Translations under genes and position numbers: made by a program
Source of the DNA: Chitinophagaceae bacterium
Lineage (GTDB): Bacteria > Bacteroidota > Bacteroidia > Chitinophagales > Chitinophagaceae
Length of the DNA stretch: 58,732 bases
NCBI GenBank assembly: GCA_020847395.1
Contig: JADLCD010000001.1
Coordinates: 1-58,732, forward strand
Direction: 5' to 3'
Notes under the pieces: generated by a model
The model's database searches: none
Seen by the model: the letters and a program-made list of their open reading frames with translations, nothing else
What the model was told of the DNA's origin: nothing
Shown here: one piece after another, positions 13,728-38,758 of the stretch
How the letters are laid out: the number at the start of each line of letters is the position of its first letter
Numbering within the stretch: position 1 is the first letter of the stretch

Positions 13728-13796
13728 CCAAAAAAGTTTTGTTACAACCTGTTAGCATATAGCATGCCTGTGACAATATCTTCGTTACATTATTTT

Positions 13797-14570: not shown

Positions 14571-14572
14571 AA

Positions 14573-16027: not shown

Positions 16028-16031
16028 GACT

Positions 16032-21343: not shown

Positions 21344-21382
21344 AATAATTGGGGTTCTGTTATTCAGATGATAAGGTGATGG

Positions 21383-22300: not shown

Positions 22301-22301
22301 A

Positions 22302-23231
22302 TTATAATGTTTGTGTTGTTTTTAATTTCCTGTTTCCAAAACTTTCAACTATAGTAAGAATGATTAAAGCAATAAGTACTAAAGCGCCGCCGGTTATCGC
22401 CTGTCCGCTGAGTTTTTCTCCCAACCATATTGCCGCTACAGGTAATCCAAAAAATGTAATGAGGTAATTGGAAATGGCAACGTCTGTTGCTTCCAGGTGT
22501 TTGAGCGCTATAAAAAAAAGTACCATGGAAAGAAAATTATGGAACAGCGTAAGGGTTCCTAAAAACCCTATCCAGGTATTGGTGGTGAATGATGGTATTC
22601 TTGCGAATATATCAGCCTCGTAATACAATACAAAGGGTGTAAGCAATATTACCATTATTACATAGGTGTAAAATACCATTTCCATACCGGTGAATTTATT
22701 AGCAATTTTTTTACAGCCCACATTATAATACGCATTGCCTACCAGCGCCAGGAAAATAAGCAGGTTGCCGATAGCATATGCAGAACCGAAGTCCATATTG
22801 CTGATATCGTTGGTGGAGCAAAGCGCAACGCCGGCAATAGCTATCGCGAAGCAAATCCATTTGATGCGGCTCATTTTTTCTTTGAGTATGAGATATGCCA
22901 GCACTGTGGTTAATATCGGCAATATTAAGACCAATATAGCAGCGTTGCTTGCCTGCGAATAGCGTGTGCCGAAGGTCATTAATACCTGCGATGGGAATGC
23001 GCCTAATATTACGAGCGGAACGAAAACTAAAAAATCTTTCAGTTTACGATTATGCTGTTTATAATCTTTAATAACAAATGGCAGCAATAAAAAAACAGAC
23101 AGCAACATTGGTCCCCACACGGTAAAATATGGGCCGATCTGATCCTGTATTAATTTGATGCCGGTAAATTGCAGCGACCACATGAGGTTGCAGCAAAAGA
23201 GTAATATCCAGGCAAATAATTTTTTGTTCAT
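22302..23231 (-). CDS. EamA/DMT-superfamily membrane transporter
   Basis: The 309-residue protein has about ten hydrophobic segments arranged as two EamA repeats (first ~8-140, second ~155-300). Typical features include AWILLFCCNLMWSLQFTGIK at the N-terminus and LEATDVAISNYLITFFGLPV plus WLGEKLSGQAITGGALVLI in the second half. It probably moves the substrate or product of the surrounding catabolic operon across the inner membrane. The start overlaps the enolase-superfamily gene by 4 bp. Confidence 0.9.
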   Translation of the reverse strand: MNKKLFAWILLFCCNLMWSLQFTGIKLIQDQIGPYFTVWGPMLLSVFLLLPFVIKDYKQHNRKLKDFLVFVPLVILGAFPSQVLMTFGTRYSQASNAAILVLILPILTTVLAYLILKEKMSRIKWICFAIAIAGVALCSTNDISNMDFGSAYAIGNLLIFLALVGNAYYNVGCKKIANKFTGMEMVFYTYVIMVILLTPFVLYYEADIFARIPSFTTNTWIGFLGTLTLFHNFLSMVLFFIALKHLEATDVAISNYLITFFGLPVAAIWLGEKLSGQAITGGALVLIALIILTIVESFGNRKLKTTQTL

Positions 23232-24376
23232 AAGCTGTTGGCTGTTGTTTCAATTGTATTTCCTGTGGCGTATTTTTTCAAAGCCTGCGTATCAAGCGCT
23301 ATACCAAGCCCTGCGCTTTTGGGCACAAGCGCAGCGCCATTTTCAAAACGTATGGGTTCAGCAATAAGATCATCTGCACGCACCAGTTCTCCAAAAATGT
23401 CGGAAGGTATGGTGCAGTTAATGCTTGCCGCGGCAATATGTAATCCCATTGTTTCGGAAATACCGAGATCAACTTCGGAACCACGCCAGCATTGTTTGTT
23501 TTCTAAGTGAGCAATCTCTGCAAGCAGCACAGAATTATAAGCAGCGCCATTGAAATTATACCCGTCAACAGCTTCATGCTTTATGAATTTGATAATGTCT
23601 TTGATGTCTTGTGTATAGGGCAATGATATATGCCTGAACAACGGCATGCCAAGATGTTTGCGCAGGTATACAAATCCTTCCACGTCTTCATGCAATATCG
23701 GGTCTTCCAGTCCATACATAATTTCTTTATCTACACCGTCCATCAACTGCATTGTAGTCGCCACATCTCTCCAGCGTTGGTTAGGATCTAAAATAATTCT
23801 AATACCTGTGCCGCATTTTTTTCGGATAGCTGCTGTCCATAATCTCACAGGGTCTTCATCCGAACATTTAAACTTAAACATCTTATGTCCTTTCTGCATA
23901 GCTTCATAGGCCTTCTGCGCGGCGTCTTCAGGATTGCGGCGACCTGTCCAGCCCATGCAATCTACATGATCCCTGTATGCGCCTCCAAGCAATTGACTTA
24001 CCGGCGCGTTCAGCAATTTTCCGGCAAGGTCAAGCACGGCACTTTCAAAAGCTTCATAAATGCGTTGATCCGTTACCGGTAGTCTGCGCCAATTGAGCGA
24101 TAAAAGATCTTTGCCTGTAAACTCATCCACGGCTTCTTTAATTAAAGCAGGCAATGCGGAACGATAGGTTTCACCAATACCGGTTAAACCATTTTGCAAA
24201 GTGATTTGTATGATCCACTTGGGCTGGTTGGCAAATTCCGTCCAGCTTTCACCAGTTAAAAATTTTTTGGCAAAGCCTTTATCTGTATCATGTACATCAC
24301 TCGAATTTAAACTGCCGGGCTTTGCAGGTACAATTACTTCCGTTGCTATAATCTTTGCTATGCTTGTTGCTGTCAT
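23228..24376 (-). CDS. Mandelate racemase/muconate lactonizing enzyme family protein
   Basis: The 382-residue enolase-superfamily protein has the capping domain (1-125) and barrel. It shows the KxK pair K168/K170 (MFKFKCSDED), the first metal ligand Asp197 (DPNQRW) and the second Glu224 (LEDP). The third acidic ligand is not obvious: the expected place reads MPLFRHIS (244-251). A Glu near 301 (GSEVDLGISETMG) matches the eighth-strand position. Activity is probably acid-sugar dehydration or epimerisation, but the changed third ligand makes this uncertain. It overlaps both neighbours by 4 bp (ATGA), showing tight translational coupling. Confidence 0.87.
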   Translation of the reverse strand: MTATSIAKIIATEVIVPAKPGSLNSSDVHDTDKGFAKKFLTGESWTEFANQPKWIIQITLQNGLTGIGETYRSALPALIKEAVDEFTGKDLLSLNWRRLPVTDQRIYEAFESAVLDLAGKLLNAPVSQLLGGAYRDHVDCMGWTGRRNPEDAAQKAYEAMQKGHKMFKFKCSDEDPVRLWTAAIRKKCGTGIRIILDPNQRWRDVATTMQLMDGVDKEIMYGLEDPILHEDVEGFVYLRKHLGMPLFRHISLPYTQDIKDIIKFIKHEAVDGYNFNGAAYNSVLLAEIAHLENKQCWRGSEVDLGISETMGLHIAAASINCTIPSDIFGELVRADDLIAEPIRFENGAALVPKSAGLGIALDTQALKKYATGNTIETTANSL

Positions 24377-25329
24377 TGGTCTCCTATGTTTTGCGGATAT
24401 TTTCCTGCCAGTTTCCTGATGTCAAAGCTGAAGTCAACAAACAATTTTTCCCATTGCTGCGCTGTAGCTTCAGTGTATGAATAAAATCCTTTTGCGTTGG
24501 CAACGCCTTTGGCGCCATCTTCGACTAATTTTTCAATGGTAGATGGAATAGTGGTGCTGTTACTTAAATCAGGGAACAGGTCTTTCATCACAGCCAGATA
24601 TGCCGGTATGCCTGTGAAATCCATAAAACGGAATGGCCCTGCGAAAGTGATCCAGTAACCGAGGTCGTTGCGTAAAGAGCGGTCAACATCTTCAATAGTG
24701 GCATAGCCATTTTCAACTAAGTAAAATGCTTCACGCAGCATCGCATACATAATGCGGTTAGTGATAAAACCACGAATATCTTTTCTTAATAAAGAAGGTT
24801 CTTTACCCCAGCTTTCCGCGATGCTGATTACTTTTTCCGCGAGCGCTATATCAGATGCATCGCCACATATCACTTCCATAAACCGGGTAATGTGCGCGGG
24901 TTCAGCCCAGTGAATGCCAAACATACGCTCCGGGTGTTGTAATCCCTGCTGCAATAAAGTAACAGGTATAGCGGAAGTGTTGCTGCCGATAATGGCATCA
25001 GGCGCCAGCACGGTTTCCAGTTGTTGGTATACTTTCTTTTTTTCTTCTATGCTTTCTATAATAGATTCAATAACGATGGTATGATTGCTAAAATCCGCAT
25101 AACTATCGGTGATGGATAAACGCTGTAATACCGTTGCCGGCTCTTCTTTTAAAATCTCTTCTTCTTTTAGTTGTAAAAGATATGCTTCAATGCGTTGGGT
25201 AGCTTCTTTTTTCTGCGCGATATTATTGGTAAGCGCAGTTACCGGGTGCCCGGCAGCGAGTATGCAGGTGGCAATGCTGCTACCCATCAATCCCAAACCA
25301 ACTGTTCCTATTTGTATTTTTTCACTCAC
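24373..25329 (-). CDS. 3-hydroxyacyl-CoA dehydrogenase (3HCDH) family NAD-binding protein
   Basis: The 318-residue protein has a Rossmann start (VGLGLMGSSIA, residues 10-20), the NTSAI motif (117-121), catalytic His140 with Glu152 (GIHWAEPAHITRFMEVI) and Asn191 (GFITNRIMYAMLREA). The usual HFFNP motif reads HWAEP, which suggests a substrate other than acyl-CoA. Soluble relatives include L-gulonate 3-dehydrogenase and carnitine dehydrogenase. It likely oxidises a beta-hydroxy acid in this operon. It starts 19 bp after the RidA gene. Confidence 0.88.
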   Translation of the reverse strand: MSEKIQIGTVGLGLMGSSIATCILAAGHPVTALTNNIAQKKEATQRIEAYLLQLKEEEILKEEPATVLQRLSITDSYADFSNHTIVIESIIESIEEKKKVYQQLETVLAPDAIIGSNTSAIPVTLLQQGLQHPERMFGIHWAEPAHITRFMEVICGDASDIALAEKVISIAESWGKEPSLLRKDIRGFITNRIMYAMLREAFYLVENGYATIEDVDRSLRNDLGYWITFAGPFRFMDFTGIPAYLAVMKDLFPDLSNSTTIPSTIEKLVEDGAKGVANAKGFYSYTEATAQQWEKLFVDFSFDIRKLAGKYPQNIGDQ

Positions 25330-25348
25330 GCTTTGCTTGTTTGTTGTT

Positions 25349-25729
25349 TTATTTCAACGCTACTATAGCATCAATTTCAATTTTAATACCATCTGCCAAA
25401 ACAGATTGCACGGTAGTGCGTGCAGGTAAAATGCTTTTAAAAAAAGAAGCATAAGCTTTATCGTAACGATCAAAGTCTTCTATTTTGCTGAGGTGCACCG
25501 TGCACTTCACCACATTATCAATAGAACCTCCGGCGGCTTCCGTAATTTTTTGTATATGCGAAAGGGTAAGCAATGTTTCTTCTTCTATAGTGCCTGAAAT
25601 TACTTCGCCGGTTGCAAGGTTCAGCGGACCCTGGCCACTGATGAATAAAAAACCGTTTGCGATTACACCGGCAGAATATGAACCGGTATGTGATTTTTTA
25701 TCAGGATGTTTTACTGCTGTTTTTATCAT
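25349..25729 (-). CDS. RidA family enamine/imine deaminase
   Basis: The start at 25729 (MIKTAVKHPDKKSHTGSYSA) was chosen because it gives the normal 126-residue RidA length and leaves a 1-bp gap to the upstream gene. The longer open frame would run into that gene. Family features are GVIANGFLFISGQGPLNLAT and the active Arg in LPARTTVQSV near residue 105. RidA proteins hydrolyse reactive enamine or imine intermediates. Its presence suggests that the pathway makes such an intermediate, so a nitrogen-containing substrate is possible. Confidence 0.9.
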   Translation of the reverse strand: MIKTAVKHPDKKSHTGSYSAGVIANGFLFISGQGPLNLATGEVISGTIEEETLLTLSHIQKITEAAGGSIDNVVKCTVHLSKIEDFDRYDKAYASFFKSILPARTTVQSVLADGIKIEIDAIVALK

Positions 25730-25730
25730 G

Positions 25731-26525
25731 TTATTGGTTTGATAGTTTTTGCATGAGCGGCCAGGTTTTAAACGCGTCAATAAACTGAATGAGCGCCGTG
25801 GTTGCTTTGTTGAATAAGTGAGCGCCTTTTCCGGTTGTGCCCGACTGTGGCTCACCACTGCTGCCGTTAGAGGAAATAAAAGCGGTTTGCTTGAACAGCG
25901 TTACGCCTTTATATGGTACATCATCTTCCCAGGGTATATAGCCGTTTTGTGCAGGACGTGCCGCACGCTGCACTTTATCCATAAAAACTTTTTCAGGAAA
26001 CAAATGCAGCATAAGACTTGTTTCGTACTCACAGGCATGGCTCAACGCCGGACTTTCCATCGGGCTGTCGCCGGCAAAGGCTGTCCCCGCCAGTTCCCAA
26101 TAAGTAGCCAATGCAATATTGGGTTGAACCGTCGTGTCAAAATCCTTACTAAGCAAAGCAAGCGCCTGTTTGGCCGGAGTAATATTACCTCCATGACCAT
26201 TCAATAAAATAATTTTTCTAAAGTCGGTTTGTATAAGTGAAGAAACTATTTCTCTTAGTACCTGTGTATATAAATCGGCTGATATGCTGATAGTGCCGCC
26301 AAAAGACAGATGATGATGGCTGGAACCAAAGGGTAGTGTGGGCGCAAGAATAATATCGTTTGTGCGTTGCCGTTCTGCCGCTTCCGCAATTCGGGTAACA
26401 ATATGCGTATCTGTTCCTGTTGCCAGGTGCGGGCCATGTTGCTCAACCGCGCCAAGCGGCAGCAATACTACTTTATCAGCGGCAGCATTTAATGTGTTAT
26501 ATGTTTCGTTAATGAATAACATCAA
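25731..26525 (-). CDS. Creatininase-family amidohydrolase
   Basis: The 264-residue protein carries the family metal-site signature PLGAVEQHGPHLATGTD (Glu28, His30, Asp39), LNGHGGN (109-115) and a downstream ACEYETSLML Glu. Members hydrolyse cyclic amides such as creatinine, or related formamide or lactam substrates. It is the first gene of the seven-gene operon, so it may act on the incoming compound. Its exact substrate is unknown. A second ATG directly follows the first. Confidence 0.87.
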   Translation of the reverse strand: MMLFINETYNTLNAAADKVVLLPLGAVEQHGPHLATGTDTHIVTRIAEAAERQRTNDIILAPTLPFGSSHHHLSFGGTISISADLYTQVLREIVSSLIQTDFRKIILLNGHGGNITPAKQALALLSKDFDTTVQPNIALATYWELAGTAFAGDSPMESPALSHACEYETSLMLHLFPEKVFMDKVQRAARPAQNGYIPWEDDVPYKGVTLFKQTAFISSNGSSGEPQSGTTGKGAHLFNKATTALIQFIDAFKTWPLMQKLSNQ

Positions 26526-26779: not shown

Positions 26780-27871
26780 CTATTCAAAAATACATTCATC
26801 CAAAAACGCCGGCTCATATCCATGCTCTTTTGCCCACTGCACGGCTGTTGCTATTTTTTCAAAATAATCAGGTTGATACGCCGCATAATCGGGATAAAAA
26901 TATTGTTCATGAATAAGATAATCTACATACGGCGGTAATCCTGAAGGCGCGCTGGCGTATGCATTCATCGTAGAAACAATATTTTCTTTTTTTGTGCGAT
27001 CCAGCACCATGCTGCTCCTGATGAAAATAATATCTTCCGCTTCATCTTTCCAGATAAATCTTTTCTTAATGTGGCGCCTTTGCTCCACATCAAGGTAATA
27101 AGAAACTGTTGGTTGATCATCATCTACATTAAAATACCCGAGCTGGCCTTTATAACCTGCAGCCCGCATTGCTCTTGATCCTTCCACAGTCACCTCACCC
27201 CAATGCACCGTAGTAACGGGGCCAAGCAACGCATCTCCGGCAAAACGTTTGATTTCTCCGATAATCAGATCACAATCTTTTTTAACCGTATCGAAAGACG
27301 CGTTTTTATATGGCGCGTCCGGGAACTCTTTGTAGGCATGAAAACTCAGCCGAAGCCAGTCTGCATTTTCCTGCCATTCTTTTTTAAAGCTGTCCGGAAA
27401 ATCGGATATGGTAAAATCTTCGCCAACAGATTGATAAAATAAATTGATGTGTACTTTGGTTTGATATTGATCGTGCAGTTTTTTTAATCCCTTTAAAAAT
27501 GGGTTATCCAAAACAGACGTATACGCATGGGTATTCTCAGCTATATCCTGCAAAAAACGGATATTATCATCTATAGAAAGCCTGTACTTTTTGGCGAATT
27601 GCTTTGCAAAGTATACTGTAATTGTTGTGGATTCTCCGGAACTTTGATTTTGTATTTCTACTGTATTTTGATATTGACCCAATACAACCGGCGCGGAAAA
27701 AATACCTGCTTCAATTTCTTTTGCCGGGATGTTATTTATGGTAATGCTGCTGCCGGAAGGCGCTGATACTTTTGCCATACATGCCAAACCTTCGCCTGTA
27801 AGCATTCCGTCTAATACATGCAGTACATCTCCGTTAATAGGAAAAACAGGCCTGATCGTTGCAGTTGTCAT
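26780..27871 (-). CDS. Uncharacterised cytosolic protein, polysaccharide-deacetylase-like
   Basis: The 363-residue protein has no signal peptide. Residues ~1-85 look like a small beta domain (TIRPVFPINGDVLHVLDGML and a TTITVYF strand). The rest has strands resembling a polysaccharide deacetylase fold (RLSIDDNIRFLQDI, WLRLSFHAYKEFPDAPYK), with an Asp-Asp pair near 98-99 and a His in SFHAY that could match the family's metal site. No enzyme activity can be assigned. It shares the 27985-28000 upstream element with two other transcription units, so it likely works with the GH109-like operon. I found no firm family name. Confidence 0.7.
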   Translation of the reverse strand: MTTATIRPVFPINGDVLHVLDGMLTGEGLACMAKVSAPSGSSITINNIPAKEIEAGIFSAPVVLGQYQNTVEIQNQSSGESTTITVYFAKQFAKKYRLSIDDNIRFLQDIAENTHAYTSVLDNPFLKGLKKLHDQYQTKVHINLFYQSVGEDFTISDFPDSFKKEWQENADWLRLSFHAYKEFPDAPYKNASFDTVKKDCDLIIGEIKRFAGDALLGPVTTVHWGEVTVEGSRAMRAAGYKGQLGYFNVDDDQPTVSYYLDVEQRRHIKKRFIWKDEAEDIIFIRSSMVLDRTKKENIVSTMNAYASAPSGLPPYVDYLIHEQYFYPDYAAYQPDYFEKIATAVQWAKEHGYEPAFLDECIFE

Positions 27872-27935: not shown

Positions 27936-28000
27936 TAAAAATATTGAATGATGTATGTTGAACTGTATAATATTCACCTGAATATCTATACTTTTTTGAC
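27936..28000 (-). promoter_or_regulatory. Composite regulatory element plus -7 box for the 26.8-27.9 kb gene
   Basis: Read in gene direction, GTCAAAAAAGTATAGA (28000 to 27985) is followed nine bases later by GAATATT. After exactly 41 bp from the first block comes TATTTTTA (27943 to 27936), one base from TAnnTTTG. The same arrangement occurs before the genes starting at 28327 and 36002. A perfect 16-bp palindrome, ATATTCACCTGAATAT (27970-27985), overlaps the element here only. Confidence 0.6.
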
Positions 28001-28245
28001 ATGAACGGATTCTCCCGCCGCAATTTGCATTGAATTAAAATCTTCATGCTGACGGTCTCCCGGTTGTGGCGGGTGTATTGTTTTTTACAACCAGCACTAA
28101 AGCAAAGCATACATTAACTCAACCTTTTGTCATCATGACGAGGAGATCGCCACGACCGCGTATCATTCATTCCATTTATTGCCTTATGCTGCGGTCTCGC
28201 GATGACGGCGGGAGTGTTGGTTTTTCAGCGTCATATCTTTACAAT

Positions 28246-28310
28246 GTTAAAAAAGTATACAACTTTAGTGGAATTATGAAGGTAAACGCAGTGATTGATT
28301 TTTACATTTG
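28246..28310 (+). promoter_or_regulatory. Composite regulatory element plus -7 box for the GH109-like operon
   Basis: GTTAAAAAAGTATACA (28246-28261) is followed nine bases later by GAATTAT (28271-28277). Exactly 41 bp after the first block comes TACATTTG (28303-28310), a perfect TAnnTTTG -7 box, 16 bp before the ATG. No TTTG is seen at -33. The first block is identical over 16 bp to the site before the gene starting at 36002. This placement also supports the start at 28327. The remainder of the 455-bp gap (27872-28326) shows no gene. Confidence 0.7.
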
Positions 28311-28326
28311 GTTATTGCATTCTATT

Positions 28327-29742
28327 ATGAGTAATTCGAGAAGAGACTTTCTCCGAAAATCAGGATTAGCAGGTATGAGCTTTGCAGGCTCCTGGATGGG
28401 CAGCTATGCATCAACTGACCAGGAACTTGAACACATTAAAGCGGGAGCGGAATATACAGCGCCGCAAATATTTAATATGAGCGGTTACGCCGCGCCTGCA
28501 TTAGATGTGGTACGTATTGGTATTGTGGGTATCGGCAATCGCGGCTTTGACGCAGTAACAAGAATGAATAAAATTGAAGGTGTTGAAATAAAAGGCTTGT
28601 GCGATTTAAGACCCGAGCGTGTTAAGCTGGCTAATGATCTTGTTACAGCTTCAGGACATAAACCAGAACTGTATCATACCAATCCGGAAGCATGGAAAAC
28701 CATGTGTGCCCGTAAAGATATTGATCTTATTTATATTTTAACGCCATGGGCATTGCATACGCCTATGGCGCTTTTCAGTATGCATCATGATAAACACGTG
28801 TGCGTGGAAGTGCCTGCGGGAAAAACATTGCAGGAATTATGGAGCCTGGTAGAAACGTCAGAAAAAACACGTAAGCATTGTATGATGGTGGAAAATTGCT
28901 GCTACGATTTTTTTGAGCTGACTACATTGAATATGGTGCGCCAGGGTTTCTTCGGTGAGATTGTTCACTGTGAAGGCGCATACATACACGGGCTTACAGA
29001 CATTCTTTTTTCGAAAGAACATTTTTATCAAATGTGGGAGCTGGATGAAAATACATTGCGAAAAGGAAACCTGTATCCTACACACGGGCTTGGGCCGATA
29101 TGCCAGGTAATGAATATTAACCGGGGCGATAAAATGGATTACCTGGTTTCAGTATCAACCAACGATTTTACATTGAGCAATGAGGCAAAACAGCTTGCCA
29201 CCAAAGATGATTTTTATAAACCGTATGTGGGTCGTTCTTTTAATGGCAATATGAATACGTCTGCCATCAGAACAAACAAAGGAAAAACAATAATGGTGCA
29301 ATTTGATGTTTCGTCTCCACGCCCTTATTCACGCATTCAACTGGTAAGCGGAACAAAGGCCGTAGCGTTGAAATACCCTGAACCTGCCCGTTATGCTACG
29401 GGTCATGAATGGCTAGACGAAGAAGCAATAAAAATATTACAGGAAAAATATAAACCAGAGATTGTAAAAAAAATCGGCGAAGCAGCTAAAGAAGTTGGAG
29501 GACATGGCGGCATGGATTTTATAATGGACTGGCGTACGATTGACTGCTTAAGAAATGGATTACCACTCGATCAGGATGTATATGATGCTGCATTGTGGTC
29601 ATCTGTTTCCCCGCTTTCCGTTTGGTCTGTCGCCAATAAATCCAACTCCATTACTGTTCCTGATTTTACAAGAGGCGCATGGAAAACTAATGCACCTGTA
29701 GATATCAGCATGAGCAAAGGCGGTACAACCGGGATAAAATGA
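28327..29742 (+). CDS. Tat-exported Gfo/Idh/MocA-family protein, GH109-like (alpha-N-acetylgalactosaminidase-like)
   Basis: The start at 28327 gives a Tat signal (SRRDFLRKSGLAG) and fits the -7 box 16 bp upstream; the upstream in-frame extension is intergenic. The 471-residue protein has the NAD-binding motif RIGIVGIGNRGF. In place of the usual EKP it has EVPAGKTLQELW, and a later YPTHGLGPICQVMNINRGD, both features of GH109 glycosidases, which use bound NAD for oxidation-assisted cleavage. Cofactor must be bound before Tat export. It heads a four-gene plus-strand operon. Confidence 0.88.
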   Translation: MSNSRRDFLRKSGLAGMSFAGSWMGSYASTDQELEHIKAGAEYTAPQIFNMSGYAAPALDVVRIGIVGIGNRGFDAVTRMNKIEGVEIKGLCDLRPERVKLANDLVTASGHKPELYHTNPEAWKTMCARKDIDLIYILTPWALHTPMALFSMHHDKHVCVEVPAGKTLQELWSLVETSEKTRKHCMMVENCCYDFFELTTLNMVRQGFFGEIVHCEGAYIHGLTDILFSKEHFYQMWELDENTLRKGNLYPTHGLGPICQVMNINRGDKMDYLVSVSTNDFTLSNEAKQLATKDDFYKPYVGRSFNGNMNTSAIRTNKGKTIMVQFDVSSPRPYSRIQLVSGTKAVALKYPEPARYATGHEWLDEEAIKILQEKYKPEIVKKIGEAAKEVGGHGGMDFIMDWRTIDCLRNGLPLDQDVYDAALWSSVSPLSVWSVANKSNSITVPDFTRGAWKTNAPVDISMSKGGTTGIK

Positions 29743-29788
29743 GTATATTGAAATGGGTTGATATTATCCCTTTAATTTAAAATAATGT

Positions 29789-30847
29789 ATGGGCAACGCA
29801 TATAACAGGAGAAAATTTTTACAAACCGCCACACTTGGCGCGGCAGGCATAGGCGTATTGGTGAATGCAAAAGCAGGTACTCAAAATCATTTACCTGTGC
29901 CTGATGGTGGAAGAATCGGTATTATAGGATTAGATACTTCACACAGCATTGCATTTACAGAGGCATTGAATGCTGCCACTCCCAATGCGATATTTGAAGG
30001 ATATAAAATTGTTGCCGCCTATCCCTGGGGTAGCCGGGATATTAAAAGCAGTACAGAGCGTATACCTTCTTATACAGAGCAGGTAAAAAAAATGGGTGTT
30101 GAAATTGTGGATTCGATTGCTGCCCTTTTGCAGAAAGTAGATGTGGTGATGCTGGAAACAAATGATGGAAGACCGCATTTACAACAGGCTTTGGAGGTAA
30201 TGAAATCGGGTAAGCGGTTGTTTATTGATAAACCTGTTGCCGCATCGCTTAAAGAAGTGCTTACTGTTTACGAAGCAGCGCAACATTTTAAGGTGCCTGT
30301 TTTTTCATCATCTTCCCTTCGCTATAATGAATTTATGCAGGATACAGCGGCAGGAAAAACTGTGGGCAAAATTTTAGGCGCTGATACCTTCAGCCCGGCA
30401 ACGCTTGAAAAAACACAGGCAGATTTTTTCTGGTACGGTATACATGGTATAGAAATGCTGTGTACACTGATGGGAAAAGGATGCGCCTCCGTAATGCGTA
30501 TAAACACTCCGGATACTGATATTGTTGTAGGAAAATGGAGTGATGGCAGGCTTGGTACTTTCCGCGGAACGCGCAGTGGCAAGAGCGGCTATGGCGGCAC
30601 CGCATTCGGAGAAAATGGAGTGCAGCGCATCGGGCCATATTCCGGATATAATGCATTGCTGGCAGAAATTATTCAATTTTTTAAAACCGGTATATCGCCG
30701 GTTAGCAGTGATGAAACAATAGAAATATATGCTTTTATGGAAGCCGCGCATGAAAGCGGAAGAAGAGGGGGTAAACCGGTTGCGCCTCAGGAAGTATTGA
30801 CGAAAGCCAAAAAGCTGGTAAAAAGAAACTGGCAGCAATACAAGTGA
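29789..30847 (+). CDS. Tat-exported Gfo/Idh/MocA-family oxidoreductase
   Basis: The 352-residue protein has a twin-arginine signal (NRRKFLQTATLGAAGIG), a nucleotide-binding start (RIGIIGLDTSHS) and the family Lys in the DKPVAAS motif. The GxGxxG is changed to GLDTSH, a variant seen in some family members. It probably oxidises or reduces a sugar hydroxyl or keto group outside the cytoplasm with tightly bound NAD(P), as Zymomonas glucose-fructose oxidoreductase does. 46 bp follow the GH109-like gene, and the aminotransferase gene lies 82 bp downstream. Confidence 0.87.
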   Translation: MGNAYNRRKFLQTATLGAAGIGVLVNAKAGTQNHLPVPDGGRIGIIGLDTSHSIAFTEALNAATPNAIFEGYKIVAAYPWGSRDIKSSTERIPSYTEQVKKMGVEIVDSIAALLQKVDVVMLETNDGRPHLQQALEVMKSGKRLFIDKPVAASLKEVLTVYEAAQHFKVPVFSSSSLRYNEFMQDTAAGKTVGKILGADTFSPATLEKTQADFFWYGIHGIEMLCTLMGKGCASVMRINTPDTDIVVGKWSDGRLGTFRGTRSGKSGYGGTAFGENGVQRIGPYSGYNALLAEIIQFFKTGISPVSSDETIEIYAFMEAAHESGRRGGKPVAPQEVLTKAKKLVKRNWQQYK

Positions 30848-30929
30848 TGCTGACCCGGGTAAGTAAACCAATTGAGCACAGCAATATAAATTTTACGAGC
30901 CCTTGTATTAAAAAAGACATAACATATTT

Positions 30930-32312
30930 ATGAAGAAAAATGCAGTACATAAAAGTCGCAGGGCTTTTATAAAAACAACGGGCATGGCTACCGCTGGAAT
31001 AATGTTAACTCCCGGCATATCTCATGCAATGCATTTGGGCAATGATAATATTTTACAACCTGCATTACTTGGCGGAGCTCCAGTGCGTACAAAATCATGG
31101 CCAACGTGGCCGCAATGGAATTCTGAAACAGATGAAAAGCTTGTGGTAGATGATTTGCGGAGCGGCATCTGGTCGAGGGCAGCATTGGTAGACCAGTTTG
31201 AAGCGGAATGGGCAAAAGCTACCGGAACCAAAAGATGTCTTTCTGTGGTAAATGGCACCAATGCGCTGATAGCATCTTTGCTGCAAATGAATATTGGCGG
31301 TGGCGATGAAGTGATTATTCCTGTATATACATTTATTGCTACTGCGGCAGCAGTATTGGCTACCGGTGCCATACCGGTATTTGTAGATACGGATATTAAT
31401 ACTTTTCAGATTGATGTTGCAAAGATTGAACAGAAAATTACAGCACGAACAAAAGCCATCATTCCTGTGCATATACTGGGCATGCCTGCGGATATGGAGA
31501 ATATTATGAAGATTGCAAAAAAGTATAATCTCAAAGTAATTGAAGATGCCTGCCAGGCGCATTATGCGGAAATTAATCATAAACGGGTAGGAAGTTTTGG
31601 CGATGCAGGTTGTTTTAGTTTTCAGAATTCAAAAAACCTGGCAATAGGTGAGGGCGGCGCTATAACCAGTAATGATGATTCGTTTATGGATCACTGTTAT
31701 TCCTATCATAATTATGGTAATCCTTATGGTGCATTGGTGGGTAATGTGAATGCGGGTACAATCATGGCCGGTAACAAACTTCGCTGGACGGAATACCAGG
31801 CTGCCATAGGCCTTGTGCAAATGAAAAGACTGGAAGCACAAACCGAAAAACGTAATGTAAATGCGGCATATCTCCGCTCAAAAATCAAAGATATTCCGGG
31901 TATCACGCCATATACATTATACGACAATGTAACCCGCGCTACCTTTCACCTGTTTTCATTTCGATATAACAAAGCTGCTTTTAAAGATTTGCCCCGCAGC
32001 CAGTTTATTAAAGCAATGAATGCAGAAGGTGTTCCGTGTATGGAGGGTTATGCGCCGCTGAATAAAATGCCTTATCTCGCCAATGCTTTTCAGTCTAAGA
32101 ATTATAAACGCATGTATTCTGCAAAAGAACTTGATATCAAATCTTACCAGTTGCGTAATGAATGCCCGGTAAATGATAAGCTTTGCAATGAAGAAATGGT
32201 ATGGATATTTCATGCTTTATTGCTGGCAGAAAAAGAAGATATGAATGATATCAGCAACGCGATTGAAAAAGTACATAGCAATGCAGAAGCATTGAAAAAA
32301 GCAATGAAATAA
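30930..32312 (+). CDS. Tat-exported DegT/DnrJ/EryC1/StrS-family aminotransferase
   Basis: The 460-residue PLP-dependent sugar aminotransferase-like protein has a clear Tat signal (KSRRAFIKTTGMATAGI, residues 8-24). The family core follows: WSRAALVDQFEAEWAKATGT, NGTNAL for phosphate binding, Asp206 and Gln209 (IEDACQAH) stacking on PLP, and Lys235 (FQNSKNLAIGEGGA) for the Schiff base. These enzymes normally act in the cytosol on nucleotide-keto-sugars. Export in folded, PLP-loaded form is unusual and suggests a free or polymer-bound keto-sugar substrate supplied by the adjacent oxidoreductases. Confidence 0.9.
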   Translation: MKKNAVHKSRRAFIKTTGMATAGIMLTPGISHAMHLGNDNILQPALLGGAPVRTKSWPTWPQWNSETDEKLVVDDLRSGIWSRAALVDQFEAEWAKATGTKRCLSVVNGTNALIASLLQMNIGGGDEVIIPVYTFIATAAAVLATGAIPVFVDTDINTFQIDVAKIEQKITARTKAIIPVHILGMPADMENIMKIAKKYNLKVIEDACQAHYAEINHKRVGSFGDAGCFSFQNSKNLAIGEGGAITSNDDSFMDHCYSYHNYGNPYGALVGNVNAGTIMAGNKLRWTEYQAAIGLVQMKRLEAQTEKRNVNAAYLRSKIKDIPGITPYTLYDNVTRATFHLFSFRYNKAAFKDLPRSQFIKAMNAEGVPCMEGYAPLNKMPYLANAFQSKNYKRMYSAKELDIKSYQLRNECPVNDKLCNEEMVWIFHALLLAEKEDMNDISNAIEKVHSNAEALKKAMK

Positions 32313-32336
32313 TCCTGAACCGGCATTCCAGATATT

Positions 32337-33686
32337 ATGAAACAGATACCAATATTTTTTGCACTAAGTCTTTTATTTTTATTCAATATTTTCCAAAAAG
32401 TTTCAGCACAAATGAAGCAACTGAAAGCACAACCGTTTCATTCGGGTTTTCCCCTGGCACATGATACTTACAATGCCTTGTCTGCCGCAAGCGATGGCAA
32501 AATTTATTATGTGCTCAGTTCGCAATCAATAGATACGGGCGGACAGATGTATAGTTATGATCCCCGTACCAATAAAATACATTTTTGTGGCGATCTGACA
32601 GAAGCCTGCGGAGAAAAAGGAGCAAAATCTATTTCGCAGGGAAAAAGCCATGTACGTTTTGCAGAGTCAAAAGGTAAACTCTATTTTGCTACACATGCAG
32701 GCTACTATAGTATGGTTGATGGCATGGAGAAGATGGGTATTGCTCCTGAAGGTTACAAGCCTTATCCGGGAGGGCATTTTCTTTCTTACGATTTAAAAAC
32801 AGGAAAGTTTGAAGACCTTGGCATTGCCCCGCACGGAGAAGGTGTTCTCACGATGAATATGGATACAGCCCGTGGCTTAATATATGCTATTACCTGGCCC
32901 GTTGGATATTTTGTTGTGTGTGACGTAAAAACAAAAACCATCAAAGAAATAACACCGGTTTCCGGCGAAGGAGAAAATGGTGTTGGCGCTGCTTTCAGAA
33001 CCTTGTGCAGGTCTATTGCCATTTACCCTAAAAATGGTGCAGTATATTTAACAAATTCCGAAGGCGCTATTTTAAAGTATATGCCCGGTGCAGATAGACT
33101 GGTAAAGATTGATGAGGACATGAAGAAAGATTATTTCGGATTGTATGATCCTTCTTCTCCGGGGCATATGGGGTATAACTGGCGGCAGGTAATATGGAGC
33201 CCGAATGATAAATGCTTTTATGGCGTACACGGCAATTCAGGGTATTTGTTTAAGTTTAATCCTGCTACTGAAACCATTACTGTAATGGAGCGTATTACTT
33301 CAGAGCCATCAAAGGCGAGCGGTATGTTCGATCAGTTTAGCTATGGTTACCTCGGTTTTATTTTAGGTCCGGATAATCGTACGCTATATTATCTTACCGG
33401 TGGCCCTATTTATGAAAACGGTAAGCGCGTAAAGGGTAAAGATCATACGGCAATGGGAGAGGCGAAGGGAGTGGAAGATCTTCACCTGGTGACTTATGAT
33501 ATAGTATCGAAACAATATACAGATCATGGTGCGGCTTTTTATCCTAACGGACAAAGACCTTTGTACGTTAATTCCATTGCGGTAGATAAAAACGGAAATA
33601 TATACACACTGGCACGCATAACCGAAGATGGACATATGACTGCGGATTTGGTGAAGATAGAGAGAGTGGTAAGTGGTAAGAAGTAA
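32337..33686 (+). CDS. Secreted uncharacterised protein, beta-propeller-like
   Basis: The 449-residue protein has a Sec signal peptide (residues 1-25, cleavage after VSA). Repeating strand patterns (KIYYVLSSQSIDTGG, LYFATHAGYY, FLSYDLKTGKFEDLG, IYAITWPVGYFVVCD, VYLTNSEGAILKY) suggest a beta-propeller. I recognise no catalytic motif. It is the last gene of the operon, 24 bp after the aminotransferase, and may bind or process the same glycan. A degenerate short-repeat stretch rich in GTAAG follows its stop (~33670-33725), and the 192 bp up to the next gene hold nothing else recognisable. Confidence 0.75.
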   Translation: MKQIPIFFALSLLFLFNIFQKVSAQMKQLKAQPFHSGFPLAHDTYNALSAASDGKIYYVLSSQSIDTGGQMYSYDPRTNKIHFCGDLTEACGEKGAKSISQGKSHVRFAESKGKLYFATHAGYYSMVDGMEKMGIAPEGYKPYPGGHFLSYDLKTGKFEDLGIAPHGEGVLTMNMDTARGLIYAITWPVGYFVVCDVKTKTIKEITPVSGEGENGVGAAFRTLCRSIAIYPKNGAVYLTNSEGAILKYMPGADRLVKIDEDMKKDYFGLYDPSSPGHMGYNWRQVIWSPNDKCFYGVHGNSGYLFKFNPATETITVMERITSEPSKASGMFDQFSYGYLGFILGPDNRTLYYLTGGPIYENGKRVKGKDHTAMGEAKGVEDLHLVTYDIVSKQYTDHGAAFYPNGQRPLYVNSIAVDKNGNIYTLARITEDGHMTADLVKIERVVSGKK

Positions 33687-33878
33687 GGAGTAAGTGAGAG
33701 AGGCAGGAGTAGATAGTAAGCAGGCAGTGTCAAAACCGGTAATCAATAACCTAAAATTTTGTAATATAGCTGAAAGCTAAAACAGTGTATCGTGTAATGC
33801 GTAATGTTGGCGCTGTGCCGGCTGTGTTTCAACATAATAAAGCTAAACCATAGCTGCTGTTAATGCTTTAACCTGTTT

Positions 33879-36002
33879 TTATATTTGCCCCGGTTGTGCT
33901 ACTGCATAAATTGCTGCTCCGTTTAAATCAACTGTAAGGGTTACGGTATTTTTGTTAAGTGATTTTATAATTGCTTTTCTTTGCGCATCATTCCATTCCG
34001 GGCTCATTACCATTAACTCACCCACAGGTATAACCGAAGTATTGATTTCGTAAGTAATAATATTATCGCTTATGCCCGATTGCATATCCTTCATAATCGG
34101 AATGCCCGATAAATCGTTTACTTCATCTGGCACCGCAATTAATCTGGTATTCATAAAATGCAGCACGAATTTGCCTTTATAATTTCTTGCTCTCACCGTC
34201 CAGCCATCGTCGCCTTTAACCTGTTTGATATAGGGCTTTATTTTTTTTGCAGCAATGAGTTGCTCCAAAGGCTGTGCATATAAAGCGGAATCAATAACCG
34301 TTATATTTTTCTTGTGCTGTTGCAACAGCGTTTGTGAAAGTGGAACAGAACGTACAAATCCTTTTTCATCATGCGTGCCGAATGGAAGCGACAACCATAG
34401 CCTTCCACCTTTGGAAAGAAACTGCTGCAAAGCTTTATATTGCCTGTCGGCTATGCAGGCAACGCCATCCATAATCAATGGTGTTTTTTCTTTTAATAAT
34501 GCTATTGCGTCTGCCAGTTCTTCTGTGCGCACAAAGCGATAACCTATATTGTTTTTGATAAAAGATTTAGTCCAGGCCATAGATCTGTCCCAGTGTTCAT
34601 GCCCTTTTTCATCGCGCCAGCCGTTATCTTTGCAATAGGTATTATTCACCAGGCGAACTTCAGGTATGTCCTCTCCATCCCTGTAAAACACATCGCTGAA
34701 TTGTTTTTCCCAGTTGTTGGATTTGGTGATAGCTGCATCATCGTCCAGCGCGTTTTTAGGATCTTCTTCTATACGCGTATTCAACGTGCTGCTCCAGTTG
34801 GCAACGCCCCAGAATCTTGCCAATGCCCAACCGAAATACGCACCCTTTTCAAATATAGAATAGCTGAGCGCCATTGCAGGCGCATTGCCTGCCTTTTGAG
34901 CAATGTCTTTTTGATGAAGCGCTTCGGCTTCCATATCCATCCACGCGGTGTTCCTGATATTGGTACCTACATTTTCAAGCATAAATAAATCAAGATAAGG
35001 CGCCATTTTTTCAAGGTTCAGTGCAACAGCATTCAATACTATGGGCCCGGTATTTGAACAACAGGTCATCAGTGGCTTATCACCCAATGTTGTCTTAATC
35101 ATTTTTACATGATCATATACAATCTCAGCTTTCATCCTTAACCAATCCCTGTAGGCAGGGTTATCATAATTTCCCCATTCGAGCATGTCTTTTGAAGTGT
35201 CTCCAAAAAAAGATTTATCAGAGAAATCAGGTATCTCATGTCCGTAATCTTTTTTAAATCTATCCCTGCAATATTTACAACCACATGTTTTATTGCCGGG
35301 ATAGCTGCACATATCGTCTACCTCAACTGCGTCGAAGGGTACATCATGCATCAGGCGTTTAAGATATTTTTTATGCATGTCAAGAAAGTCGGGGTTATTA
35401 TGGCAAAATGCCTCAAACTGGTATTGTGATGCATAACCGTGACTGCCATCGCGCAGATCAACTTCAAAAAGATCATTAAAGAAATGACCTTCGTATTGCG
35501 CATATTTTGCTGACACCGCGTCGTTAAAAAGCAGTATGCCATGACGTTGGTATTTGTGCATATACCTAAAATCGGCTTCTGTTCTTGGCCTGCCTACATG
35601 ATTGCAGGAATAATGATCCATAAAACGAATACCGTATTTATGCAACTCTTCACACACATTGGCATAATACCCATGCAACTGCGTAAAATAATTGGAAAAA
35701 TCGAACCTGTTATGAAACCCAAAATTTATAGCGGTATCAATCTGGGCTTTGGCAAATCCTTCGGCTCTTCTTTTTATTTTATCGGTAATTTGTTTCTGCG
35801 GCCATAATAAATCATCTATCGTGCACCACCAGCTTGCCAGGCGGTTGGGAACAAATTGCTGTGCATGTGCTGATGGCATTATTAAATCCGGGCTACCTGT
35901 TTCCTGCGCTTGCAGTTGCTGCATAAAAGATGGTAAGCTTAGTGCCGCACCCGAAAAAGTGGTCATTTTTATAAATTGCCGGCGATTGGTAAAAGGTTTC
36001 AT
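33879..36002 (-). CDS. Tat-exported TIM-barrel-like protein, putative glycoside hydrolase
   Basis: The 707-residue protein starts with a Tat signal (NRRQFIKMTTFSGAALSLP). Residues ~55-420 look like a TIM barrel of the kind in GH42-like or alpha-amylase-type putative hydrolases, with WWCTIDDLLWP, INFGFHNRFD and VDDMCSYPGNKTCGCKYC, then F..DYGHEIPDF; C240, C242 and C245 form a possible metal or disulphide cluster. A Rossmann-like trimerisation-type region (~480-600) and a C-terminal beta domain follow. Substrate and catalytic acids cannot be assigned. It carries the same upstream element as the facing operon. Confidence 0.7.
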   Translation of the reverse strand: MKPFTNRRQFIKMTTFSGAALSLPSFMQQLQAQETGSPDLIMPSAHAQQFVPNRLASWWCTIDDLLWPQKQITDKIKRRAEGFAKAQIDTAINFGFHNRFDFSNYFTQLHGYYANVCEELHKYGIRFMDHYSCNHVGRPRTEADFRYMHKYQRHGILLFNDAVSAKYAQYEGHFFNDLFEVDLRDGSHGYASQYQFEAFCHNNPDFLDMHKKYLKRLMHDVPFDAVEVDDMCSYPGNKTCGCKYCRDRFKKDYGHEIPDFSDKSFFGDTSKDMLEWGNYDNPAYRDWLRMKAEIVYDHVKMIKTTLGDKPLMTCCSNTGPIVLNAVALNLEKMAPYLDLFMLENVGTNIRNTAWMDMEAEALHQKDIAQKAGNAPAMALSYSIFEKGAYFGWALARFWGVANWSSTLNTRIEEDPKNALDDDAAITKSNNWEKQFSDVFYRDGEDIPEVRLVNNTYCKDNGWRDEKGHEHWDRSMAWTKSFIKNNIGYRFVRTEELADAIALLKEKTPLIMDGVACIADRQYKALQQFLSKGGRLWLSLPFGTHDEKGFVRSVPLSQTLLQQHKKNITVIDSALYAQPLEQLIAAKKIKPYIKQVKGDDGWTVRARNYKGKFVLHFMNTRLIAVPDEVNDLSGIPIMKDMQSGISDNIITYEINTSVIPVGELMVMSPEWNDAQRKAIIKSLNKNTVTLTVDLNGAAIYAVAQPGQI

Positions 36003-36024
36003 ATAGGAGAAATTATGTTCTTCT

Positions 36025-36089
36025 CAAATCTATTCTCCATAAAGGCATATCTGTTCCATTATTCGGTATAAAATGTATACTTTTTTAAC
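36025..36089 (-). promoter_or_regulatory. Composite regulatory element plus -7 box for the TIM-barrel gene
   Basis: In gene direction GTTAAAAAAGTATACA (36089 to 36074) is followed nine bases later by GAATAAT. After exactly 41 bp from the first block comes TAGATTTG (36032 to 36025), a perfect TAnnTTTG box 22 bp before the ATG. Spacing and orientation are the same as before the genes starting at 27871 and 28327. Confidence 0.7.
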
Positions 36090-36152: not shown

Positions 36153-37241
36153 TTAATTGGCTAATATAAATGTCTCCATCGTTAACCCCGGGCCAAAAGC
36201 TGCGCCAAATATTTTTTTATTTGTTTTTGAACGATTGTTTTTCATCATTTCTTTCAAAACAAATAAAATAGTGGGGGAAGACATATTGCCGAAGTTTTCC
36301 AGCACATTGTAACTATTGCTTAAGCTGTTGCTATCAATTTGCAGACTGTTGCTAACAGCTTCGAGTATGCGCTTTCCGCCGGGATGAATGCACCAGTCGC
36401 TAATATCATTTTTATGCGCTGCACAGGATTGTAGCGCTTTACGCACAAGCAGATCAAAATCTTCTTCAATCAAATCAGCAATATAACCGCTCAGCGTCAT
36501 CTGGAAGCCGGATGAAGAAAGTTCCCATGCCATATCTCTTTTGCCGCGGGGGATTATTTCAGCATAAAAATTTTCAATTTCAAAACCTGCCAGCGCATTA
36601 TCACTGTGTGTAATAAGCGCCGCTGCTGATCCATCTGCAAACAACATGCTCGAAGTAATATTATCAATCGTGGCTTCTTTTTGAAAATGCAGCGTGCATA
36701 ATTCCGTGCAAACAATAAGCACTTTAGCATTAGGGTCGTTTTTGCAGAAAGCGTTAGCAATTTTTAATGCATGTATGGCGGCATAGCAGCCCATAAAATT
36801 TACAGAAGTTCTGAAAGTGGTTGCAGGAAGGTCGAGCAAATCAACAATCTGCAGATCAAGCCCAGGCGCACTCATGCCGGTGCAGCTTACGGTAATAAGA
36901 TGGGTAATTTGGTCGGTGGATATTTTGCCCGCAATGCAATTGCGTATAGCATCAACTGATAGTGGTGCGGCATATTTATTATATAATGCCATCCTATGTT
37001 CCAAAGAAGGAAATGGCTCAAGGTTCTCACTTTGAGGATAAAATTTCCAATCTTCCACAGGCTTGCTGTAATCCGCTATAACTGAATATCTTTTTTGTAT
37101 ACCACTCTGGTGATATAAAAATTTTATTTTACGCTGATCCACTGTATTGGTAGCATATACGCGTTGCATAAAATGCAGGATATCGCTCTGCTGGTGTTTA
37201 TATGCCGGTACTGCTGTACCTATATTGATGATTTTACTCAA
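36153..37241 (-). CDS. Type III polyketide synthase (chalcone/stilbene synthase family)
   Basis: The 362-residue protein has the Cys-His-Asn triad of type III PKS: Cys152 (NFMGCYAA), His286 (WCIHPGGKRIL) and Asn319 (NFGNMSSPT). The C-terminal GAAFGPGLTMETF loop is typical. It would extend an acyl-CoA starter with malonyl-CoA to an alkylpyrone or alkylresorcinol. Its start overlaps the end of a UbiA-like prenyltransferase gene by 8 bp, suggesting co-expression. No methyltransferase or oxidoreductase, often found with such genes, is adjacent. Confidence 0.93.
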   Translation of the reverse strand: MSKIINIGTAVPAYKHQQSDILHFMQRVYATNTVDQRKIKFLYHQSGIQKRYSVIADYSKPVEDWKFYPQSENLEPFPSLEHRMALYNKYAAPLSVDAIRNCIAGKISTDQITHLITVSCTGMSAPGLDLQIVDLLDLPATTFRTSVNFMGCYAAIHALKIANAFCKNDPNAKVLIVCTELCTLHFQKEATIDNITSSMLFADGSAAALITHSDNALAGFEIENFYAEIIPRGKRDMAWELSSSGFQMTLSGYIADLIEEDFDLLVRKALQSCAAHKNDISDWCIHPGGKRILEAVSNSLQIDSNSLSNSYNVLENFGNMSSPTILFVLKEMMKNNRSKTNKKIFGAAFGPGLTMETFILAN

Positions 37242-38118
37242 AGTAATGGTTTAAAAAAATGATGATAAAAGCTATATTGGTACAAACTGATGCAATGATA
37301 TTCATACGCATGGTATTTCTATAATTAGCATTCGAATTATTGTGCCAAACTCTTATTGCCCACATTAAAAAATAAATAATTACCGGCGACATGCAAATGG
37401 TGAAAATGTAAAAAGCAGTGTTTTGCAAACTGTAAAAAAAATACCAGGCTAATAGCAAAAACGCTAAAGTATATACGAAGCCGCAATACAAAAATGTGCC
37501 TTTATAGCCGAGTGTATAGCTGATGGTTCTTACATTGTCTTTTACATCTGCCTCGTGCTGGTAAATTTGTGTTAACGGGTAAAAACCTCCAATCAGCAGG
37601 CTTGCAACAATCATCGGTATAACAGGAACAAACAGGGTTTTGTTTGCACTGCATCCATGATACACCAGCCAGAACGTAACAGCGCCCTGAAAAAAGATAA
37701 CGGTAAGATACCCGGCGAAAGGATATTTTTTTAACCTTATACCGCGGTAACTATATGCTTTTGATGCGAGTATATAGGCGATGATGCCAATAGCAAAATA
37801 TACGCTGATGAAAAATGAAGCAATAACCGCAACGGCATCGAGTAGCATAGTGGTATAAAACAATTGGCTGGTTGGTTGCAGCGGATTTTCAACACCACCG
37901 ATGCTTTCGGTATCCCTGTCCATATAACTGTTGTAGCCGTTACTTGCCGGATAAACCAGCAGGTGCAGTATAATGAAAATGGCGATGCTGTGCATTATAT
38001 TTATCTCAACCAACTGGCTTAGCGCAAACCAATACACCGGCATGAGGAACAGCGAAAAATGAAATCTCAGCAACTGCATGGTTGATGGCTGAATAAATGT
38101 ATTTGATGAAGCCTGCAT
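37234..38118 (-). CDS. UbiA-family prenyltransferase-like membrane protein
   Basis: About eight to nine transmembrane helices are seen. The first Asp-rich motif reads NSYMDRDTE within YPASNGYNSYMDRDTESIGG, and the second reads YQHEADVKDNVRTISYTLGY, matching the prenyl-diphosphate binding sites of UbiA enzymes. The ATG at 38118 (MQASSNTFIQPSTMQLLRF) is preferred; a TTG at 38193 would add 25 residues that do not look like the family start. It may prenylate the aromatic product of the adjoining type III PKS, which is an inference from context. Confidence 0.83.
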   Translation of the reverse strand: MQASSNTFIQPSTMQLLRFHFSLFLMPVYWFALSQLVEINIMHSIAIFIILHLLVYPASNGYNSYMDRDTESIGGVENPLQPTSQLFYTTMLLDAVAVIASFFISVYFAIGIIAYILASKAYSYRGIRLKKYPFAGYLTVIFFQGAVTFWLVYHGCSANKTLFVPVIPMIVASLLIGGFYPLTQIYQHEADVKDNVRTISYTLGYKGTFLYCGFVYTLAFLLLAWYFFYSLQNTAFYIFTICMSPVIIYFLMWAIRVWHNNSNANYRNTMRMNIIASVCTNIAFIIIFLNHYFE

Positions 38119-38239
38119 AGCGTTGATAATATAAGGAATGTATTGCCTGAGAGAAACGGCTATTGTAAGGTAAGATTTTAGATGATAATTCAATCAGCGT
38201 TTAATAATAAATACGAAGACTGAATTTTGTGGTTGCGTT

Positions 38240-38758
38240 TTAATTGTGCGTATTTGCTGCTTTTAAGATTTTTACTGTCACCATTAATTGTCCTGTATGC
38301 CTTTGGGTATGTTCTGCGGCATGAAAAATCAATCCTGATACAGTAGATGGAATTTGTTGCCTGCCTACGCCGCGGATTTCTGTTAGTATATTTTCGGCTG
38401 TTGCGGAAAGTTGGGCAATGGCTTTATCAACCTGCCTGTTAAAATATTCAAGCAGTTCTTTTGTTGTGATGGCAGATGCTGTTTCTTCCTGTTTCAAATA
38501 TTGTAACTGCGCTTCACTTAGCGTTTCTGCCTTTGCATAAGTAAGTAACCTGTCGAGCACGCCTGCCAGGTGCCGCAAGTGAAACCCGGGCGCAGCAACT
38601 CCCGCCGGTTTTTCCCAAAGTAATGCATCCGGAAAATCATTCATAAACTGATTGATTTCTTCTCTTGCCTGTAATAACGCATGCGCTGCGGGTTGCAACA
38701 AAGCCGGAATGCCTGTGATGGGTCCGCGAAGCCAGACTTCTGAGCTGGTTATCGACAT
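38240..38758 (-). CDS. DinB-family protein
   Basis: The 172-residue four-helix protein has the DinB/YfiT-like pattern: a His in HLRHLAGVLDRLLTYAKAE and a second pair in IFHAAEHTQRHTGQLMVTVK, which form the usual three-His metal site. Such proteins include bacillithiol or mycothiol S-transferases and uncharacterised hydrolases. The function here is unknown. It lies upstream of the UbiA-like gene with a ~120-bp gap. Confidence 0.85.
   Translation of the reverse strand: MSITSSEVWLRGPITGIPALLQPAAHALLQAREEINQFMNDFPDALLWEKPAGVAAPGFHLRHLAGVLDRLLTYAKAETLSEAQLQYLKQEETASAITTKELLEYFNRQVDKAIAQLSATAENILTEIRGVGRQQIPSTVSGLIFHAAEHTQRHTGQLMVTVKILKAANTHN

Follow-up and report, generated by a model that had tools for sequence, protein, structure and literature searches.

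A composite promoter element with fixed spacing and its candidate AraC-family activator in Chitinophagaceae

Within a 58,732-nucleotide stretch of a Chitinophagaceae genome (the window), three transcription units are preceded by the same composite sequence, which raises the question of whether this sequence acts as a promoter element and, if so, which protein acts through it. The initial annotation had proposed an activator, possibly of the AraC type or a hybrid two-component regulator, that switches on three units together. From the comparisons below, the element is probably (at roughly 0.83) the operator-promoter of a dispersed catabolic regulon under a 288-amino-acid (aa) AraC-family activator.

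The element and the genes behind it

The composite element consists of a 16-bp block, the motif GAWTWWT, and a -7 box that starts exactly 41 bp past the block. All three copies in the window lie where the initial annotation had placed them, each with exactly this distance (Table 1). The 16-bp blocks at 28246 and 36089 are identical, and that at 28000 has two different bases, again as described, and the sequence flanking the sites differs from site to site. The near match that had been noted inside the PIG-L gene is also present, at 14043 to 14058 with two mismatches. A second SusCD locus in the window (9647 to 20256), with ECF-type sigma, FecR, PIG-L, and alpha-L-rhamnosidase-like genes, contains no composite element.

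Table 1. Composite elements and the genes behind them (window positions unless a contig is named)
Feature	Position	Strand	Details
Element 1	28000-27936	-	Block 28000-27985; GAATATT 27975-27969; -7 box TATTTTTA 27943-27936; transcription start predicted near 27931
Element 2	28246-28310	+	Block 28246-28261; GAATTAT 28271-28277; -7 box TACATTTG 28303-28310; transcription start predicted near 28315
Element 3	36089-36025	-	Block 36089-36074; GAATAAT 36064-36058; -7 box TAGATTTG 36032-36025; transcription start predicted near 36020
Fourth site	C72:58355-58419		Other contig, outside the window; before the susC-susD-GH20 operon
363-aa protein	26780-27871	-	First gene after element 1; no Pfam or NCBIfam family
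Creatininase family	25731-26525	-	After the 363-aa gene; presumably cotranscribed
RidA-like	25349-25858	-	Start uncertain; presumably cotranscribed after the 363-aa gene
3HCDH family	24373-25329	-	Presumably cotranscribed after the 363-aa gene
MR_MLE	23228-24376	-	Presumably cotranscribed after the 363-aa gene
EamA transporter	22302-23231	-	Presumably cotranscribed after the 363-aa gene
DHDPS family	21383-22300	-	Presumably cotranscribed after the 363-aa gene
SDR	20600-21343	-	Presumably cotranscribed after the 363-aa gene
GH109-like Gfo/Idh/MocA oxidoreductase	28327-29742	+	PF21252, PF01408; first gene after element 2
Second Gfo/Idh/MocA protein, DegT/DnrJ aminotransferase family, Kelch/SBBP-like (weak matches)	29789-33686	+	After the GH109-like gene
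707-aa protein ("TIM-barrel" of the initial annotation)	33879-36002	-	After element 3; no Pfam or NCBIfam family

Across the whole assembly (5,170,366 bases in 190 contigs), the 16-bp block is matched exactly four times (backwards control, 1), and the 32-bp composite, with up to three mismatches, has five matches in 5.17 Mb, four of which are exact (control, 0). The remaining match, on contig C122, has three mismatches, lacks both a box and a downstream open reading frame, and is probably due to chance. When the -7 box is included, again with up to three mismatches, only the same four exact places are recovered (control, 0). The fourth unit encodes a SusC-like protein, a SusD protein (PF12741), and a GH20 enzyme, and its SusC-like protein shares 25 to 29% identity (over its relatives) with the window's own TonB-dependent SusC. 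The proposal of a three-unit regulon was therefore correct in that the three units share the element, but it counted too few, as the susC-susD-GH20 operon is a fourth.

Just ahead of this unit on C72 (L035:13364-19998), one gene product is related to the 363-aa window protein (56%). The same stretch encodes a 3-keto-disaccharide hydrolase family protein, a DUF7133/HEAT/cytochrome c protein, and, without a Pfam match, a protein that is ceramidase-like by eye. Elsewhere in the window, type III polyketide synthase-like, UbiA-family, and DinB-like genes lie just behind element 3 (36153 to 38758), and a 1,274-aa protein without a Pfam family is encoded beside a LuxR-type response regulator (2693 to 7225).

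Structure prediction for the 363-aa and 707-aa proteins gave mean pLDDT values of 46.6 and 46.2, and comparison of both with solved structures (phmmer) returned nothing at E < 0.05. The other enzymes provide weak leads that may point toward the chemistry of sugar acids and cyclic keto sugars. Against 3-dehydro-scyllo-inosose hydrolase, the creatininase-family protein reaches 94.6 bits, below the cutoff of 245, and it scores higher against MftE (141.2) and creatininase (111.8), both also below cutoff. The solved structure nearest to the DHDPS-family protein is L-2-keto-3-deoxyarabonate dehydratase, those nearest to the MR_MLE protein are muconate-type enzymes, with DauB (5olc) at an E value of 2.8e-14, and the GH109-like protein matches sugar 3-dehydrogenases far below their cutoffs.

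Conservation and spacing of the element

An exact scan of one genome per species (84,980 species, with records of the genome itself possibly left out) recovered 11 stretches in nine genomes, all of which are Chitinophagaceae or unclassified Bacteroidetes/Sphingobacteriales. The Chitinophagaceae comprise Flavihumibacter profundi, two Ferruginibacter genomes, Flavitalea sp. BT771, a Flavipsychrobacter MAG, and two Chitinophagaceae MAGs, and the other two are the MAGs Bacteroidetes bacterium SZAS-19 and Sphingobacteriales bacterium 44-15. Recurrence of the motif upstream of orthologues had been put forward as a check on the shared element, and 10 of the 11 stretches precede orthologues of the four leading genes, the exception being a site in G004 on the side of the 363-aa gene, where the gene behind it is missing.

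Over all loci examined, identity to the proteins of this genome is 64 to 84% for the 363-aa protein, 82 to 85% for the GH109-like protein, 61 to 69% for the 707-aa protein, and 59 to 86% for SusC. A boxed element precedes the 363-aa orthologue in seven further genomes (G001, G008, G010, G019, G303, G361, and SZAS-19). Before the GH109-like orthologue, a counterpart of element 2 is present in G008, in G001 with its box displaced by one base, and in G004 with an A missing. Element 3 has counterparts before the 707-aa orthologues of two Ferruginibacter genomes, Flavitalea sp. BT771, and G034, and the fourth site before susC-susD-GH20 in G008, G019, G303, G361, and SZAS-19 as well as in this genome. 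In all, boxed sites occur in ten labelled genera, although the genomes in this and every other count are related by shared ancestry and are not independent samples.

The distance between block and box is largely fixed. A weight matrix built from 17 site sequences, with the -7 box left out, was applied to 770,024 bases, overlaps counted, from the window, the neighborhood stretches, and the 11 species-scan stretches, and nothing exceeded 10 bits in the reversed-sequence control. After identical contexts were dropped, and with five neighborhood stretches not in this count, 54 sites exceeded 15 bits. TANNTTT[GA] occurs at offset 57 (41 bp past the block) in 45 of these 54 sites, as opposed to 8 of 6588 positions at all other offsets, and the box is present at offset 57 in 27 of the 34 sites outside the training sequences. 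Conservation covers positions -1 to 13, 15, 18 to 19, 21, 25 to 29, 31 to 32, and 34, followed by the box.

Some of the box-less sites retain part of the signal: the box is shifted by one base in G001 and in the second G207 site, and TTC replaces TTT in G375 and BT771 (L034). Others are the gene-less G004 site and a weak second site in G303. The matches in G342, G409, and G386:C3 (2 to 3 mismatches) have nothing else supporting a site and are probably due to chance, and they are kept in the denominators of the 54 sites and of the 13 motif genomes described below. Matches in G004:C40 and G007, with three mismatches and no -7 box at the right place, are likewise probable chance occurrences; these two and that on C122 are counted in neither total. 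A stretch from G005 (L006), which matches the 16-bp block only, was dropped.

Housekeeping promoters of Bacteroidota carry a -33 TTTG/TTG element. In agreement with the initial annotation, no TTTG lies 15 to 26 bp before the three boxes of the window, and none is enriched in the 45 boxed sites, where it occurs in only 0 to 2 sites at each spacer of 15 to 26 bp; TTG peaks at 10 of 45 sites, at a spacer of 24. The -7 box itself fits the Bacteroidota housekeeping consensus TAnnTTTG. In the available text of PMC9723704, the -7 box mapped in Flavobacterium psychrophilum spans -12 to -5, which would place the conserved part of the element at about -70 to -35.

A candidate AraC-family regulator and the alternatives

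The candidate for the protein acting on the element is a 288-aa AraC-family protein, the gene for which is flanked in G008 by the susC-susD-GH20 operon and the catabolic operon. The gene lies in the same kind of cluster in G010, G019, G303, and G361, and in these five genomes it is 5 to 8 kb from a boxed site. Its orthologue in this genome (93% identity; next best, 36%) is at C20:72805-73668, outside the window, surrounded by genes unrelated to the regulon and with no site beside it, such that regulator, transporter, and catabolic genes are distributed over three contigs with the element still in common. The protein has a C-terminal AraC-type double helix-turn-helix (HTH; PF12833, 80.6 bits, cutoff 33.6; PF00165, 42 bits, cutoff 26.6) and an N-terminal AraC-binding/cupin-like domain (PF02311, 24.2 bits, cutoff 21.1), and no kinase or receiver domain is detected in it by Pfam. 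Between the two regulator types first considered, the cupin-like and HTH domains of this 288-aa protein favor the AraC type and not the hybrid two-component regulator.

In nine genomes of otherwise differing gene content (G273, G308, G341, G207, G062, G061, G375, G381, and G152), the AraC gene is located 48 to 209 bp from a boxed site. Eight of the nine are divergent from the gene behind the site, which is a creatininase-family gene in four cases, an SDR gene in two, and a susC-like gene in two; in G308, the AraC gene lies upstream of the site's gene in the same direction. The commonest unit adjoining the regulator is creatininase family-RidA-3HCDH family-MR_MLE-EamA-DHDPS family-SDR, and the order of these genes in the window (20600 to 26525) is kept beside the AraC gene in other genera. 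Gene order at 29789 to 33686 is similarly kept in G019, G303, and G361. Two AraC orthologues lie in tandem beside a boxed site in each of G061:C2 (L130:16431-18202) and G375:C294 (L132:9813-11546).

Twenty-seven gene families are present in at least three site neighborhoods, and no other DNA-binding regulator was seen among them by labels and Pfam; the 363-aa, 707-aa, and F27 families have no Pfam match, and an esterase-like family has a weak FecR_C match. Many stretches were picked for holding the AraC gene, and its own recurrence in them is by design.

Co-occurrence was assessed in 394 family genomes from a larger group, with an orthologue cutoff of E 1e-75, at most six first-look candidates scored per genome, and up to two mismatches in the motif. 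The orthologue is present in 19 genomes and the motif in 13, with both in 10 (Fisher test, P = 1.1e-12), although the overlap in G386 involves a box-less match on another contig, leaving a sound overlap of 9. The motif genomes without the orthologue are G034, with a boxed site, and G342 and G409, with no box. The nearest AraC paralogue is found in 28 of the 394 genomes and in 3 of the 13 motif genomes (P = 0.057). The helix stretches FSRYFKHHTRKT and SNFYRHFK, which would be expected to contact DNA, were compared over 26 orthologue rows (23 distinct), in which overall identity falls as low as 49%. Per-position identity of the two stretches in these rows is 77 to 100%, and they differ in three paralogues; their conservation lends modest support, since such stretches are generally conserved across the AraC family.

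Several results stand against the link. At E 1e-70, no orthologue was found in site-bearing G004 (100% complete) or G001 (510 contigs), and none was found at E 1e-75 in G034, where a boxed site precedes the 707-aa orthologue. On G004:C3 (L030, L041), the 363-aa gene is gone from behind one site and that site has lost its -7 box, a second G004 site has one A fewer in the block, and one G004 site is still boxed; these features suggest possible natural operator decay after loss of the regulator, and a factor other than the AraC protein could conceivably act on the sites in this genome. Conversely, no site above 15 bits lies near the gene, in the stretch examined, in five orthologue carriers (G097, G237 [short contig], G255, G386, and G137), the orthologues of which have about 49 to 54% identity; G137 has an 8.4-bit site, with the box, 42 bp from the AraC gene. 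The orthologue is also present in a Flavitalea and in two Ferruginibacter genomes (66 to 69%), with no site within the 1.5 kb examined, nor is there a site near the gene in this genome, and autoregulation of the AraC gene is not general. A 21-bp direct repeat of half-sites is typical of many AraC-family sites, though not universal, and none stands out in the element. A self-correlation search for direct or inverted repeats of block 1 gave 0.17 at shift 21 and a best direct value (shifts 8 to 45) of only 0.34, and the highest value, 0.54, was inverted, at shift 8, and aligns the block with its own overlapping part.

The three site-bearing genomes without a detected orthologue (G004, G001, and G034) and the location of the AraC gene of this genome on a contig that contains none of the four sites fit an explanation in which the regulon is real but its element is bound by a different protein, whether a paralogue of the AraC protein, a hybrid two-component regulator, or some unlinked DNA-binding factor, with the AraC gene traveling along. 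We regard this as unlikely: no other DNA-binding family was seen recurring around the sites (three recurrent families being without a Pfam match), the AraC gene adjoins boxed sites within variable surroundings in nine genomes, and the nearest paralogue, the one scored for co-occurrence, does not track the motif.

The element might instead be an unusual promoter for an alternative (ECF) sigma factor, with the 16-bp block as its upstream part, given the ECF-type sigma gene at 19663 to 20256 in the window and the lack of a housekeeping-type -33 element. This explanation is very improbable, as the fixed box fits the housekeeping consensus, the conserved block extends about 70 bp upstream, and the sigma gene adjoins another SusCD pair and is absent from the recurrent families; moreover, in the available text of PMC9723704, the ECF-like Flavobacterium motif carries a CGT box in its place. 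An origin in chance A-rich matches, or in a dispersed repeat that regulates nothing, can be dismissed, because, despite 12 loose block matches in the window (up to three mismatches) versus 4.06 expected, the species scan, the spacing, the orthologous targets, and the assembly control (four sites versus 0) speak decisively against chance, and the spread of boxed sites over ten genera and the differing flanks also oppose it.

Conservation before orthologues, the 41-bp spacing in 45 of 54 sites, and co-occurrence with the AraC gene strongly support the original idea of a shared activator-type element, with the 288-aa AraC-family protein as its probable activator.

Proposed mechanism and comparison with known systems

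From the observed sites, spacing, conservation, linkage, and co-occurrence, we infer binding and activation as follows. The AraC-family activator most likely binds an asymmetric site from about -70 to -35 and would recruit RNA polymerase carrying the housekeeping sigma factor to promoters in which a good -7 box of the TAnnTTTG type is present and a -33 element is absent. Judged from position only, the element may work like class II activation, with the activator beside polymerase and no -33 element. An inducer, probably sugar derived, would trigger activation, and induction would turn on the outer-membrane SusC/SusD uptake pair and the GH20 enzyme along with the oxidoreductase, hydrolase, dehydratase, and transporter genes of the window.

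As to the substrate, we offer a tentative and rather doubtful suggestion, namely, that the regulon could serve an undescribed, largely nonphosphorylative breakdown of an oxidized, possibly amino-sugar-bearing glycan. Uptake through SusCD/GH20 would be followed by Gfo/Idh 3-keto-type oxidation, creatininase-family ring opening, and MR_MLE/RidA/DHDPS-family/SDR steps, the scattered loci being united by one AraC protein with an operator that replaces the -33 element.

Predicted together are the 32-bp operator and its exact spacing from the -7 box, the likely regulator gene, and the targets. This makes it possible to test directly, in Bacteroidota, transcription that depends on an activator and has no -33 element, and it provides a handle on a group of enzymes without known substrate. 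The arrangement also suggests that dispersal of the regulator, transporter, and catabolic genes need not make a regulon unrecognizable. To our knowledge, few operators of plain AraC-family regulators have been defined in Bacteroidota outside gut genera. In the literature searched, which leaves most subscription papers outside, we found no description of this operator and no AraC-family regulon with a binding motif in Chitinophagaceae, and the letters AAAAAAGTATAC occur only in an unrelated paper.

In Escherichia coli, AraC at araI1-I2 of pBAD likewise occupies an activator site at about -70 to -35, beside polymerase, but pBAD has a 21-bp direct repeat and DNA looping, which are not seen here, and the -10/-7 consensus differs. 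The AraC-like hybrid two-component (HTCS) regulons of Bacteroides, in the available text of PMC3878776, also combine an AraC-type DNA-binding domain with SusCD-linked polysaccharide genes, and their sites were likewise found by comparative genomics. Those motifs are described there as direct repeats, whereas the site here has no clear direct repeat, and, unlike the HTCS proteins, the candidate lacks kinase and receiver domains. The nearest parallel among the published arrangements that we read is the carrageenan regulon of Zobellia galactanivorans under CgrA, compared here by its described gene content and layout (PMC5698469, available text). It differs in its substrate enzymes, which are sulfatases, GH127, and GH129-like enzymes, and no operator sequence or spacing for CgrA was seen in that text. 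CgrA is likewise an AraC-family positive regulator, its regulon is likewise dispersed, with a SusCD pair distal to the catabolic cluster, and it likewise includes a cycloisomerase (DauB), a DMT-type sugar transporter, and keto-deoxy sugar acid steps.
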